Source of the DNA: an uncultured Pelagibacteraceae bacterium
Lineage (GTDB): Bacteria > Pseudomonadota > Alphaproteobacteria > Pelagibacterales > Pelagibacteraceae
Reading direction: 5' to 3'
Length of the DNA: 64,000 nucleotides
Assembly: GCA_902569055.1 (NCBI GenBank)
Contig: CACFSU010000001.1
Span: forward strand, 20,001 to 84,000
Shown here: positions 23,152-39,265 of the stretch, piece after piece
Layout: each line of letters opens with the position of its first letter
Position numbering within the stretch: position 1 is the stretch's first letter
Position numbers and translations under genes: made by a program
Notes under the pieces: generated by a model
Databases searched by the model: none
Seen by the model: only the letters and a program-made list of their open reading frames with translations
What the model was told of the DNA's origin: nothing

Positions 23152-23330
23152 AATTTTTTTTAAATAAAAACTTTGTATAAACAAAAATATTAAATACAAG
23201 TTGGGATTGAATATCTTTATTAAAGAATTTCATCTATTATTGTTGATAACTCTAAATTAATACTTGTTTATTAAAAAGTAATATCAGTATATTGTGTTTT
23301 TTAAATTAATTAACACATCATATAGTTTTT

Positions 23331-23870
23331 ATGAGTTGGACTGAAGAAAAAGTAGCAAAATTGAAAGAACTTTGGGGCAAAGGAAACACTGCCAGTCAAA
23401 TTGCAGAAATAATTGGCGGTATTAGTAGGAATGCTGTCATAGGGTGCCTGGCCCCTCTAATTTTTTAGAGGGGCACAGGACTTTCAGGAAAAGCACACAG
23501 ATTAAACCTTTCAGCAAAAATTAAAACAAGAGCTGCAACTTCAAACCAAAACTTTGAATCTTCTATAAAAGATAAAAATGTTAAATCAAGAAGAGGAAGA
23601 AGAAGTAGATTTAGATCACTAATAATAGAAAAGGATTTTGAGCCTGAAAACCCAAAACAATTAGAGGAATTAGATGACAATTCTTGTAAATGGCCAATAG
23701 GTCATCCTGATGAAAAAGATTTTTATTTTTGTGGAAGATCTTCATTAAAAGATTTTTCATACTGCAAGCTTCATTTGCTTTATGCTTATCAACCAAAGGG
23801 TAAAAAAGAAGAAGCAACAGAAAAAGAAGAAGTTTCTGAATTTATTGAAAAAAAAATTCAGTCAGCTTAA
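23331..23870 (+). CDS. gcrA: GcrA cell-cycle regulator, interrupted in frame by a 45-nt hairpin insert containing TAG
   Basis: GcrA is the alphaproteobacterial sigma-70 cofactor that reads CcrM-methylated GANTC promoters. The 5' part encodes the wHTH start (MSWTEEKVAKLKELW, then GGISRNAVIG) up to G38 at 23442-23444. From 23487 the same frame continues with GKAHRLNLSAK and runs to the TAA at 23868-23870. That part includes the C-terminal domain with CKWPIGHPDEKDFYFCG and YCKLH. Between them lie 45 extra nt with one in-frame stop, TAG at 23466-23468. Without the insert the product would be 164 aa, normal for GcrA. Nothing else is damaged. It may be a fresh pseudogene, a readthrough or bypass gene, or an assembly artefact. 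Confidence 0.85.
23444..23485 (+). repeat. Small palindromic element inserted in gcrA
   Basis: A 42-nt core is flanked by AGG on both sides (23441-23443 and 23486-23488), as if a 3-nt target were duplicated. It is much richer in G+C than its surroundings. GCCCCTCTAA (23451-23460) and TTAGAGGGGC (23465-23474) form a perfect 10-bp stem with a TTTT loop. The stem extends by CCTG (23447-23450) with CAGG (23476-23479) across one unpaired A, and by GT (23444-23445) with AC (23480-23481) across one unpaired G. No second copy was noticed in this window by eye. Confidence 0.8.
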
Positions 23871-23884
23871 AATATAATTAATTT

Positions 23885-24856
23885 TCAATATTTTTCTTTA
23901 AAATTATATTTTTCACTAGAAAATTGGCCACCCTCTCTCCACATATAAGCATATTTTTTTACTTCATTATTAAAGTATCTTTTACTTGGAGAACCAATAT
24001 CAAAGTTATTTTTGTATTTACCAGATAAGATATTATCATATTTGAGAAGTTTTAACTGATCCTCTGTCAAAGGTGGATTTGGAAACAGCTGAAAAGTTTT
24101 TGCTGAAACTTTTGCTAATAGAAATGGAAAAGGAACCAAAAATCTTTTTTTATCTATTAAGATTAATAATCTCTGTAATATTTCTTTAAATGTGATCACC
24201 TCAGGTCCTACACACTCAATTATTTTTGAATTAATATTATTAGAAATGATATGATAAATAGTATCGGTTAAATCAGTACAATGAATTGGAGTAAACTTGG
24301 TTTTTCCAAAATAATATAATGGAAAAAAAGGCAATCTATTTAACAAGGTCATGAAGTTAGTCGTAAAATTATCATCAACTGAATAAACTACTGAGGGCCT
24401 AAGTATTGTGGCTAAAGGAAAATTTTTTATAATATTTTTTTCTCCTTCAAGTTTACTTTTTGCATAGTTGCTGTCTATAGCTTCATTAATGCCTAAGGCT
24501 GATAAATGAATAAAATTTTTTAATTTATATTCCTTTGAAAGTTTCGACAAAATAGAAGGAAATAAAGTGTGAATATTATAAAAAGTATTTCCTCTACGTT
24601 TTTCATATAAAATACCAACTAAATTTATACATAAATCCGCTTTTTCAAAAAGTGTTCTAATTTTCTCCTCTTCATAAATATTAGTTTCTACTATATCTAT
24701 ATATCCAGCATTTCCTTGAGTTTTAATTATGTAGCTTTTTTGATGAATACTTCTTGTTACTATAGTAACCTTGATATTATTTTGTGTTAATTTTCTAATT
24801 AAGTGTCTTCCTATTTGGCCGCTGCCACCAAAAATTAGACAATTTTTAGGTTTCAT
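23885..24856 (-). CDS. NDUFA9-like NAD(P)-binding protein (complex I accessory / atypical SDR)
   Basis: Extended short-chain dehydrogenase-like protein. The N-terminal Rossmann motif is FGGSGQIGRHLIRKL (about 8-22), with a later YAKSKLEGEK active-site-like motif (YxxxK) and a C-terminal substrate-binding part. It resembles the NDUFA9 family found beside respiratory genes in alphaproteobacteria. Length 323 aa fits. The role in complex I stability is known for the mitochondrial relative and only inferred here. Divergent from rnd with a 16-nt gap. Confidence 0.8.
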   Translation of the reverse strand: MKPKNCLIFGGSGQIGRHLIRKLTQNNIKVTIVTRSIHQKSYIIKTQGNAGYIDIVETNIYEEEKIRTLFEKADLCINLVGILYEKRRGNTFYNIHTLFPSILSKLSKEYKLKNFIHLSALGINEAIDSNYAKSKLEGEKNIIKNFPLATILRPSVVYSVDDNFTTNFMTLLNRLPFFPLYYFGKTKFTPIHCTDLTDTIYHIISNNINSKIIECVGPEVITFKEILQRLLILIDKKRFLVPFPFLLAKVSAKTFQLFPNPPLTEDQLKLLKYDNILSGKYKNNFDIGSPSKRYFNNEVKKYAYMWREGGQFSSEKYNFKEKY

Positions 24857-29277: not shown

Positions 29278-31002
29278 ATGGAAATATATAAAGATCTTTC
29301 AACTCCAGCTTCACAAGAATTTGAAAAATTACTAAATAGCCAACTTTCAAAAGCAAGCATAGAAGAAGGAAAGATAATTGAGGGTAAAATTAATAAGATT
29401 ACTGAAAAATTTGTATTTCTGTTTGTAGAAGGGCTTAAAAGTGAACCAGTTTTAGATATAAATGAATTAAAAAGCTTGGGCTTAACCGACAAAATAAAAG
29501 TTGGCGAAACAATCTCTGTATTGCTAGAAAAAATTGAAGATAAAAATGGTGAAATTCTTGTATCAGCAATCAAAGCACAAAAAATTAAGGGTTGGAATAA
29601 ATTAGTTGAAGCCTATGAAAAAAATGAACCCGTTATAGGTAAAATTACATCAAAATGTAAAGGTGGTTGCATTGTCGAACATGTTGATACAGGTTCATTA
29701 ATGTTCTTACCAGGATCTCAAATAAGTGACAAACCTCTTAAAGATATTAGTCACTTAATGAATGAGCCTCAAAAATTTGCTTTAATAAAATTAGATAAAA
29801 TTAGAGGCAACGCTTGTGTTTCAAGAAAAGAAATTATTTCCTCATTTAAAAAAGAAGATAAAGCAAAAATAATAGAGAAATATAAAATTGGAGATATAAT
29901 TAAAGGTGCAGAAGTGAAAGGTTATAGTTCTTTTGGATGCTTTTTTAATGTAAATAACGAGCTTGATGTATTAGTTCACTTACAGGAAATTTCATATTCT
30001 AGAGTAAATCACCCAGATGAAGTATTCAATATCGGAGAAAAACATAATTTAAAAGTTATATCTGTTGATAAAGAAAAACTACAAGTTGGTTGTTCTGTAA
30101 AACAATTATCTCCAGATCCTTTTGAGCATATTGAAAACTATAAGCTTAATAAAATTTATAAAGCTAAAGTAGTTAAAATTATGGATTTTGGTGCTTTTTG
30201 TGAATTAGAACCTGGTTTAACAACTTTACTTCATTCAAGTGAACTAAGCTGGACTAAAAAAAATATTACAGCTAAAAAAATGTTTAAAATAGGAGATGAA
30301 ATAGATTGTATAATTACTGAAATAGATAAAGATAAGAGAAGAGTTGCTATTTCCCACAGACTAACACAAGAAAATCCATATGAAACCTTTGAAAAAAAAT
30401 ATCCAGTTGAAACAATAGTTGAAGGTGAAGTAGTTAATAAAAATGAATATTCATTATTTGTTAAAGTAAAAGATTTAGATATAGATGCTTTCTTACATTG
30501 TAATGACTTAACCTATCTAGATAATGGCGAGGAAGAGTTAGCAAAATATAAAAAAGGTGACAAAATAAAAGTCAAAGTTTTAGAGATTAAAGTTTCTGAT
30601 CAAAAAATAAGAGTAGGTTTAAGACAAACACAGCTAGATCCATTGGATTGGTTTAAAGATAAAAAGGTTAATCAAATAATTACTGTTAAAATTATCTCAA
30701 CTGATAACAAAGGTTTAACTGTAAGACCTGAAGGTTGCGAAATGGACTTCCAAATTAAAAAGTCTCAAATAGCAATTAATGCTGCAGATGCAAGACCTTC
30801 AAGGTTTACAGGTGGTGAAAGAATAGATTGTGCTATAGCAGAATTAAATTTAGATAAAAGAAAAGTAACTTTAAGTATAAGACTCCTTGAAGAACTGGCT
30901 AAAAAAGAAGCTTTAGAAAAATATGGAGCAGAAGACTCTGGTAAAAACTTACCTTTCTCCTCTTTATCTGAAGATTTGAAAAAAAAAGAGGACAAAGACT
31001 AA
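29278..31002 (+). CDS. rpsA: 30S ribosomal protein S1
   Basis: RNA-binding ribosomal protein that helps recruit mRNA, important in genomes with weak Shine-Dalgarno signals such as this one. Six S1/OB repeats are visible in series; typical repeat cores are VKGYSSFGCFFNV, VVKIMDFGAFCEL and VVNKNEYSLFVKV. Length 574 aa is standard. An upstream gap of 122 nt probably holds its promoter. ihfB follows after 22 nt. Confidence 0.97.
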   Translation: MEIYKDLSTPASQEFEKLLNSQLSKASIEEGKIIEGKINKITEKFVFLFVEGLKSEPVLDINELKSLGLTDKIKVGETISVLLEKIEDKNGEILVSAIKAQKIKGWNKLVEAYEKNEPVIGKITSKCKGGCIVEHVDTGSLMFLPGSQISDKPLKDISHLMNEPQKFALIKLDKIRGNACVSRKEIISSFKKEDKAKIIEKYKIGDIIKGAEVKGYSSFGCFFNVNNELDVLVHLQEISYSRVNHPDEVFNIGEKHNLKVISVDKEKLQVGCSVKQLSPDPFEHIENYKLNKIYKAKVVKIMDFGAFCELEPGLTTLLHSSELSWTKKNITAKKMFKIGDEIDCIITEIDKDKRRVAISHRLTQENPYETFEKKYPVETIVEGEVVNKNEYSLFVKVKDLDIDAFLHCNDLTYLDNGEEELAKYKKGDKIKVKVLEIKVSDQKIRVGLRQTQLDPLDWFKDKKVNQIITVKIISTDNKGLTVRPEGCEMDFQIKKSQIAINAADARPSRFTGGERIDCAIAELNLDKRKVTLSIRLLEELAKKEALEKYGAEDSGKNLPFSSLSEDLKKKEDKD

Positions 31003-38578: not shown

Positions 38579-39265
38579 TTATGTTAAATTTGAAAGTTCA
38601 TTAAATTTTTTTAATCTTCCAAGAAACAAATTTTGATAAATAATTAAATCGTGCCCTTGAATTTTAAATTCTTGGAATAAGTTATTTACTGTGCAAACAA
38701 GTATTACGCAAGACGAGATATTTGAGTTATACACAATATTATGAGCTAAAGAATACGCACTTGTTTGCAACAACCAAGTGTCAATATATTGAATTTTTTT
38801 TGGTTTATTGCTTTGTTTAAAATCAATTATTGTCTCTTTTCCCTCATAAACTCCAACACAATCAGCGGTGCCTGCATATTTTTCTGGATAGTAAAGAGTA
38901 CATTCTGTTCCCCATATTTCTTCTAATCTATTTGTTAATCCTTTATCAATTATCTCTTTAGCCATTAATTTATATTGCTCACTATCATCAAAAAAACTTA
39001 AATTTTCTCTGCCTAAAAGATAAGATTCCAAATAATTGTGCATTTGTGAACCTCTGCTACTTGCCGCTTTTGTTATTGCCTCTGCTTCTTTTTCACCAGT
39101 TCTCTCACGCCAATTTGCTAATGCTGCTTTATCTTCCTCAGATTTAGTTGCATCAAGAATTGAAGTGACACTAGGTAATTTTTTTTCTCCCAATAAATAT
39201 CTTCTAATTCCATCTACAGTTGCTCTTGAAGATGTTGGATAATCATATTTTTTATTCCACTTCAT
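38579..39265 (-). CDS. PD-(D/E)XK superfamily exonuclease (MGME1/phage-type)
   Basis: A 228-aa nuclease of the lambda-exonuclease/RecB-like fold. The core is YAGTADCVGVYEGKETIIDFK, giving D135 and the D148-x-K150 pair, preceded by the helix RGSQMHNYLESYLLG and followed by QTSAYSLAHN. The N-terminus (LPSVTSILDATKSEEDKAALANWRERTG) is like mitochondrial MGME1 and phage exonucleases. No helicase part is fused. Next to ExoI and divergent (72 nt) from rmuC, so three DNA-processing genes are grouped. Confidence 0.82.
   Translation of the reverse strand: MKWNKKYDYPTSSRATVDGIRRYLLGEKKLPSVTSILDATKSEEDKAALANWRERTGEKEAEAITKAASSRGSQMHNYLESYLLGRENLSFFDDSEQYKLMAKEIIDKGLTNRLEEIWGTECTLYYPEKYAGTADCVGVYEGKETIIDFKQSNKPKKIQYIDTWLLQTSAYSLAHNIVYNSNISSCVILVCTVNNLFQEFKIQGHDLIIYQNLFLGRLKKFNELSNLT

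Follow-up and report, generated by a model that had tools for sequence, protein, structure and literature searches.

Does a gcrA gene whose reading frame is cut by a hairpin still yield a whole protein, and what would bring its two halves together? This question is raised by the gcrA copy in the window, which is the whole stretch of 64,000 nucleotides analysed here. The gene is open from its start through Gly38, where it is split by a G+C-rich hairpin of 45 nt that carries TAG in frame, and its downstream part runs on to a stop. This structure had been described in an initial annotation; re-reading the sequence and its open reading frames confirmed the split and gave the same positions for the GGG, TAG and GGA codons (Table 1).

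Table 1 Features of the split gcrA gene and of the empty rpsA site in the window
Feature	Position	Strand	Basis or remark
gcrA 5' part, codons 1-38	23331..23444	+	Pfam GcrA 1-40 of 155; ORF 23331-23468; last codon is the predicted take-off codon GGG
5' stem-loop within the coding sequence, TGGCGGTATT/AATGCTGTCA, 10 bp	23414..23439	+	Predicted fold; 2 nt ahead of the take-off codon
Predicted take-off codon GGG (Gly38)	23442..23444	+	Sequence; GGG here in 11 of 12 inserts
Gap of 45 nt that ribosomes are predicted to bypass; begins after GGG and includes GGA	23445..23489	+	In insertless relatives Gly38 leads directly into KAHR
Gap hairpin: lower stem CCTG/CAGG; upper stem GCCCCTCTAA/TTAGAGGGGC (23451-23474, 10 bp); TTTT loop	23447..23479	+	Predicted fold
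In-frame TAG within the 3' arm of the hairpin	23466..23468	+	Sequence
Predicted landing codon GGA	23487..23489	+	GGA in 11 of 11 Gly-type inserts
gcrA 3' part, GKAHRLNLSAK to the stop	23487..23870	+	Pfam GcrA 38-153 of 155
rpsA (ribosomal protein S1), matched part, uninterrupted; empty site	29662..30966	+	N piece up to 29808, C piece from 29809

The split gcrA gene in the window

The region 23430-23500 was predicted to fold at -33.4 kcal/mol (z -6.25), and none of 200 shuffled sequences was equally stable. A search of the window for the hairpin core returned this single occurrence and none in 100 shuffles, and the insert was found once in the draft genome to which the window belongs (G000; 39 contigs totalling 957,075 bases, completeness about 75%). 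The assignment of this genome to SAR11 (Pelagibacterales) is based on its named relatives. Against Rfam, positions 23300-23900 gave seven matches up to an E value of 10, none over the gathering score. The codon next after GGG is TGC. The initial annotation had missed the 10-bp stem-loop that lies within the coding sequence just ahead of the insert, and also the presence of similar inserts in relatives and in other genes.

Hairpin inserts in gcrA of related genomes

When gcrA was compared across SAR11 genomes, the insert proved to be no one-off: six genomes carry a hairpin in gcrA, and in five of them (G000, G098, G570, G202 and G357) it lies at the identical base. The gaps measure 45 nt in G000, 42 nt in G098, 48 nt in G570, 44 nt in both G202 and G357, and 49 nt in G059. 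In G202 and G357 the insert shifts the frame, yet the 3' half is open to its normal end. The hairpin of G059 is unrelated and sits one codon upstream of the others' site, between two ATC codons (ATC-49 nt-ATC); it was seen in no other genome among the 79 searched. Four other genomes carry the core of the window hairpin in gcrA as well, and two carry it in an exonuclease gene.

The inserts were retrieved in several ways. A DNA pattern excluding Lys39 recovered those of G000, G098 and G570 from a set of 399 genomes and those of G000, G202 and G357 from a set of 297. The other hits of this pattern (five of eight and three of six, respectively) lay in other genes, which we take from their motifs to be nucleotidyltransferase-like and LpxA-like. 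A search for the exact hairpin with three mismatches allowed matched only the window genome among 397 genomes; it missed the hairpins of G202 and G357 because their loop and arm lengths differ. Genes without insert are the common state, since a simple search found gcrA passing through GKAHR uninterrupted in 104 of 112 fetched loci, the eight loci it missed including three copies of the window's own locus.

When the 45-residue product was used as protein query, many short GcrA fragments diverging at the same residue were obtained. Tails of the element type (RLAPLIY, RILPL, RIKPL and others) were present in 26 of the 64 distinct fragments examined, a hand-picked and non-random set in which the ambiguous P0026 was left out of the 26; one of the 26, P0121, is probably G202 itself. 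In the database, insert-type GcrA falls into clusters with as many as 69 members (P0003). Four further fragments (P0013, P0028, P0055 and P0130) end in SLIHI, SEPTRR or SYTHLTLPT, tails which resemble translated sequencing-adapter sequence and would be a source of false truncated proteins.

Inserts in other genes

Altogether, 12 inserts were found in eight genomes and four genes, namely gcrA, rpsA, an exonuclease gene and a deacetylase-family gene. The names rpsA (ribosomal protein S1) and deacetylase-family are presumed from sequence motifs. A covariance model built from five gcrA inserts was run on 399 genomes and matched 23 of them: four with GGG-type gcrA inserts, G059, the exonuclease case in G603, and 17 with uninserted gcrA. 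A hairpin in G787 was set aside as no insert, since it lies 3' of a gene's end.

In G603 the same hairpin interrupts a phage-type exonuclease gene (PHROG 298), and G627 carries an exonuclease insert at the same place, both in the form GGG-43 nt-GGA. On three phage homologues the two pieces of the split exonuclease align directly next to each other, and all 30 uninserted copies examined continue without insert, 19 of them as QLGAY. The gene is present in 58 of the 61 genomes of the genus and matches 887 phage records; an insert-type tail ends three of the nine database homologues examined. The window's own exonuclease (about 38765-39253, minus strand) is uninterrupted. Of three phage records inspected, two had a putative HNH homing endonuclease annotated near the exonuclease.

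Of the genome G202, given as 97% complete, 1,172,317 bases (18 contigs) were scanned de novo for strong hairpins flanked by long open frames, with at least 45 open codons on each side. Three elements were obtained, in gcrA, in rpsA (GGG-46 nt-GGA) and in the deacetylase-family gene (GGG-44 nt-GGA). They account for four of the 11 lines of the scan, the C8 element appearing on both strands; three lines were inspected and rejected, and the remaining four were judged on the printed junction alone. The same scan of G000, with at least 36 open codons on each side, left gcrA alone, which made up two of its ten lines (both strands), the other eight again being judged by the printed junction only. The 1,172,317 bases of G202 contain one gcrA and one full-length rpsA match, and both are split out of frame. 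The rpsA inserts of G202 and G357 are identical 46-nt sequences, and G570 carries a different, 50-nt insert at the same place; rpsA has no insert in G098, G059 and the window genome. In the window genome the pieces of the deacetylase-like gene are contiguous too.

Common architecture of the inserts

The pairing of matched glycine codons with a stem, pointed out for the window copy in the initial annotation, holds in 11 of the 12 inserts, which are flanked by GGG and GGA; the twelfth has ATC on both sides. All 11 Gly-type inserts have GGA as predicted landing codon; of 106 uninserted gcrA, 34 have GGA at codon 38 (the others being GGT in 59, GGG in eight and GGC in five). Gap lengths range from 42 to 50 nt and are 0, 1 and 2 modulo three in three, five and four inserts, respectively, and every one of the 12 carries an in-frame stop or changes the frame. 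The stops of the three in-frame gcrA inserts (window, G098 and G570) differ in identity and place, with TAG in the window copy and TAA or TAA plus TAG in the other two.

Directly 3' of the take-off codon, no stop is found in any of the 12 inserts. The codon at this position, which would stand in the A site, is CGC in nine (four gcrA inserts, that of G059, two in rpsA and two in the exonuclease gene), TGC in the window, GCG in rpsA of G570 and GGC in the deacetylase-like gene. With 74 of 341,427 codons, CGC is the least used sense codon of G202; in the window (4 of 17,146) just one is rarer. The 8-bp core of the 5' stem-loop is fully paired in all five GGG-type insert-bearing gcrA, compared with seven of 102 uninserted ones (those of the 106 that have a 113-nt exon); it was not evident in the folds of the exonuclease genes or of G059 gcrA. 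Covariation among five gcrA insert sequences did not go beyond that of shuffles (94 of 500).

One tRNA-Gly with anticodon UCC can read both GGG and GGA. The sequence of G202 has tRNA-Gly GCC and UCC and no CCC, and therefore one tRNA would read both codons; in the window's draft genome (75% complete, 17 tRNAs) tRNA-Gly GCC was found and UCC was not. Different hairpins share the rpsA site (G570 versus G357 and G202) and occupy neighbouring gcrA codons (G059 versus the others). Certain sites seem to attract inserts.

Selection on the downstream halves

The 3' parts of gcrA from 111 of 114 loci (three gave no 3' part) were used to calculate dN/dS, each insert-bearing gene being paired with its nearest insertless relative in a tree of flanking genes. 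The values were 0.075 for G202 (with L071), 0.012 for G357 (L041), 0.072 for G000 (L034) and 0.087 for G570 (L073), and 0.32 for G098. Control medians by dS class were 0.066-0.092 over 569 of 655 insertless pairs, the other 86 pairs lying outside the four dS classes, and the highest control pair had 0.239. So four of the GGG-type gcrA look normal and G098 looks relaxed. Decay of downstream codons in insert-bearing relatives, which the initial annotation had named as a contrary sign, was thus not seen in four of five GGG-type genes (dN/dS 0.01-0.09) and may apply to the fifth. The C-terminal half of G098 gcrA (locus L118), with 136 codons, is longer and more divergent than in the other insert-bearing genomes; decay or recombination is possible there.

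In gcrA the downstream frames reach the usual end of the gene. Those of the other genes are open as well: in each of the two exonuclease genes 60 codons lead up to the stop, rpsA has about 400 open codons and the deacetylase-like gene 188. Between the two split exonucleases of G603 and G627, the C part gave a dN/dS of 0.11 (dS 1.01, dN 0.115), and the N part was similar (dS 0.86, dN 0.107). In the first 60 codons of the rpsA 3' part, pN/pS was 0.08-0.19 for G202 and G357 against insertless G098 and G000; insertless pairs gave 0.11-0.29. The start of the G570 3' part is less constrained, with 0.32 (vs G000), 0.30 (vs G098) and 0.48 (vs G059). The rpsA N part was compared without gaps, and this comparison was left out of account. 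If the inserts are recent in each lineage, selection measured between relatives may partly predate them. Since some inserts may be recent, these results are strong evidence, though not final, that the two parts are joined at expression.

Distribution and probable transfer of the inserts

In a tree of the two flanking genes (100 loci), the five genomes with GGG-type gcrA inserts lie scattered, each with an insertless nearest relative, although G098 and G357 fall in one six-member clade. Between G202 and its close insertless relative L071, the gcrA tract around the insert is sharply different while both sides are similar. G357 compared with L041 has only a clear 3' edge of such a divergent tract; its 5' edge is unclear since the region ahead of the gene also differs. 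For the window gcrA, no relative close enough for this comparison was found.

Over the final 47 nt of the 5' exon, G098, G570, G202 and G357 show 96.5% identity to one another, compared with 82% for insertless pairs, and none of 20,000 random sets of four reached this value. The window gcrA does not have the shared exon (72% identity to the other four). In rpsA, G202 and G357 share codon choices just upstream of the insert. Their inserts are identical although 64% of synonymous sites are different in the 60 codons that follow, a sign of recent transfer. The shared gcrA exon type occurs without insert in L090, G081 and G258, where the insert was either lost or has yet to be gained; the alleles L090, L140 and L141, which have an insert-type 5' exon and no insert, may represent exact loss or the pre-insertion state. 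This pattern of tracts looks like co-conversion.

No source of the element emerged from the searches, which gave two phage matches (E values of 1 and 5), no plasmid match and, in one search, none among viral contigs. Five matches from a second viral-contig search were unrelated, judging by their 60-base flanks. Among the 26 insert-type GcrA fragments, 11 (P0002, P0058, P0061, P0085, P0106, P0122, P0123, P0125, P0127, P0129 and P0131) differ in length at GKGN-TASQ, close to the distal end of the shared exon tract; these places are possibly junctions of transferred DNA.

How the two halves may be joined

Hairpins split the only rpsA found in G202 and other genes besides, so ribosomes likely hop over them. 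We consider it quite probable that the SAR11 hairpin elements, which are short, mostly G+C-rich and placed between two codons that a single tRNA should read, are skipped by ribosomal bypassing and that whole proteins are thereby made. The grounds are recurrent fixed sites, frame independence, open and mostly selected downstream halves, single split copies, the scatter among genomes and, in several cases, shared 5' exon tracts that are foreign to their hosts. Bypassing agrees with the frame independence, with the codon pairs, with a hairpin where the gap begins, with gaps of 42-50 nt and with a rare codon in the A site. In such a process the ribosome would stall with peptidyl-tRNA-Gly on GGG, aided by the hairpin and by the rare A-site codon (CGC in 9 of 12), would slide over 42-50 nt and would pair again at GGA.

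The main rival to bypassing is removal at the RNA level, in which the hairpin would be cut from the mRNA and the ends joined, as for a very small intron. It, too, would lead one to expect lengths that ignore the frame, downstream halves that stay open and needed genes present as a single split copy. Such joining needs no same-tRNA codons, yet these are present in 12 of 12 inserts, and no Rfam family came above its cut-off in the gcrA region. No bacterial machinery is known to remove a hairpin of 42-50 nt from mRNA, and we judge this route unlikely. Somewhat less likely still is a broken gene that gives only the 45-residue N-terminal product, with the C-terminal half as a relic that has not decayed or with truncation acting as a regulatory switch. 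The in-frame stop of the window copy, the relaxed 3' part in G098 and the possibility that inserts are recent agree with it. Against it, three genomes have a split gene for ribosomal protein S1, a protein that E. coli cannot live without, no other full-length copy was found in the 1.17 Mb of G202, the C parts of the two split exonucleases keep their low dN/dS at a dS of 1.0, and insert-type GcrA forms database clusters of considerable size.

UAG readthrough, one of the outcomes considered in the initial annotation, would give GcrA with 15 extra residues and suits the window copy taken by itself, with its 45 nt, single in-frame TAG and lack of any other lesion. It fails as a general mechanism because nine of the 12 related inserts are not multiples of three; only gcrA of the window, G098 and G570 keeps the same frame behind a stop, and the identity and place of the stop differ among these three. 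The extra residues would also interrupt RNAVIGKAHRL, a helix of the DNA-binding domain, at the end of the part matched by the GcrA structures 5yiu and 7ye1. We regard readthrough as very improbable, and the same holds for internal re-initiation, by which two separate GcrA chains would form a split protein. For the latter speak the separate Pfam GcrA matches of each half and near in-frame starts in G202 gcrA (TTG, codon 5), the G627 exonuclease (TTG, codon 4) and the deacetylase-like gene (ATG, codon 9). Elsewhere such starts are distant: the gcrA 3' frame has no ATG, GTG or TTG before codon 96 of 127 (counted from 0) in the window, 61 in G357 and 109 in G059, and rpsA of G202 and G357 has none within 60 codons after landing although this stretch is conserved. 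A sequencing or assembly artefact, conceivable for a draft assembly of 39 contigs, can be practically dismissed given inserts in eight genomes, in 26 of 64 database GcrA fragments and in three of nine exonuclease proteins.

Bypassing and a mobile micro-element, offered as alternatives in the initial annotation, are thus both supported and belong together. There is a reasonable likelihood that mobile DNA hairpins of several sequence families invade essential chromosomal genes of SAR11 at glycine codons, with translation as the removal step; such hairpins would survive because the ribosome hops over them. Spread within a gene may proceed by recombination of short tracts (co-conversion), and new genes may be reached by rare jumps.

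Comparison with known systems

Precedents described for programmed bypassing are one phage gene, T4 gene 60, and yeast mitochondria (PMC5009743, PMC11194080, PMC8811140). In the accounts of gene 60, the take-off and landing codons are read by one tRNA-Gly, about 50 nt are skipped, a hairpin stands at the start of the gap and a stem-loop lies 5' of it (PMC5009743, PMC11194080); sliding keeps high processivity for gaps of up to 56 nt (PMC11194080). The SAR11 inserts are similar in their same-tRNA glycine codons, their gaps of about 50 nt and the hairpin at the gap start, and the GGG-type gcrA also have a 5' stem-loop just upstream. Unlike gene 60, in which a stop follows the take-off codon, they have CGC, TGC, GCG or GGC there; take-off is at GGG and landing at GGA, the sites are in several chromosomal genes, and bypassing is what we infer.

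In the mitochondria of Magnusiomyces capitatus many inserts (byp elements) have been described as bypassed, with an unused codon in the A site (PMC5009743, PMC8811140). Like them, the SAR11 inserts are palindromic, G+C-cluster sequences in protein genes (PMC5009743, PMC8811140, PMC6649704), they have a rare codon in the A site where that of the byp elements is unused, and their hairpins are diverse in sequence, as in the three genes of G202 (gcrA, rpsA and the deacetylase-like gene). The byp elements number 81 in an organelle, whereas the SAR11 inserts are on a bacterial chromosome with few per genome (three found in G202, one in G000). Codons are matched in 12 of 12 SAR11 inserts, and in the accounts of byp elements the match is absent in several. 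Bypassing has been reported for byp elements, whereas for the SAR11 inserts we infer it. The mobile GC clusters of yeast mitochondria are likewise short and G+C-rich, and are described as transposable and linked to gene conversion (PMC8811140); those clusters are mostly intergenic, whereas the SAR11 elements lie inside genes and mostly at Gly codons.

In the open-licence articles of PubMed Central, preprints excluded, no report was found of bypassing in SAR11 or as a family of bacterial chromosomal elements. SAR11 cells are among the most abundant in the ocean. If bypassing holds true, gene callers misread the insert-bearing genes as truncated, and long ribosome slides are efficient enough to make ribosomal protein S1. 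The inserts would then define mobile elements that are tolerated via translation and not splicing, and would offer a natural set of diverse bypass signals (12, with more in database proteins) for dissecting take-off and landing.

The Rickettsia palindromic elements are also palindromic inserts in alphaproteobacterial genes; they are longer and are read through in frame as protein. Unlike them, all 12 SAR11 inserts have a stop in frame or change the frame.
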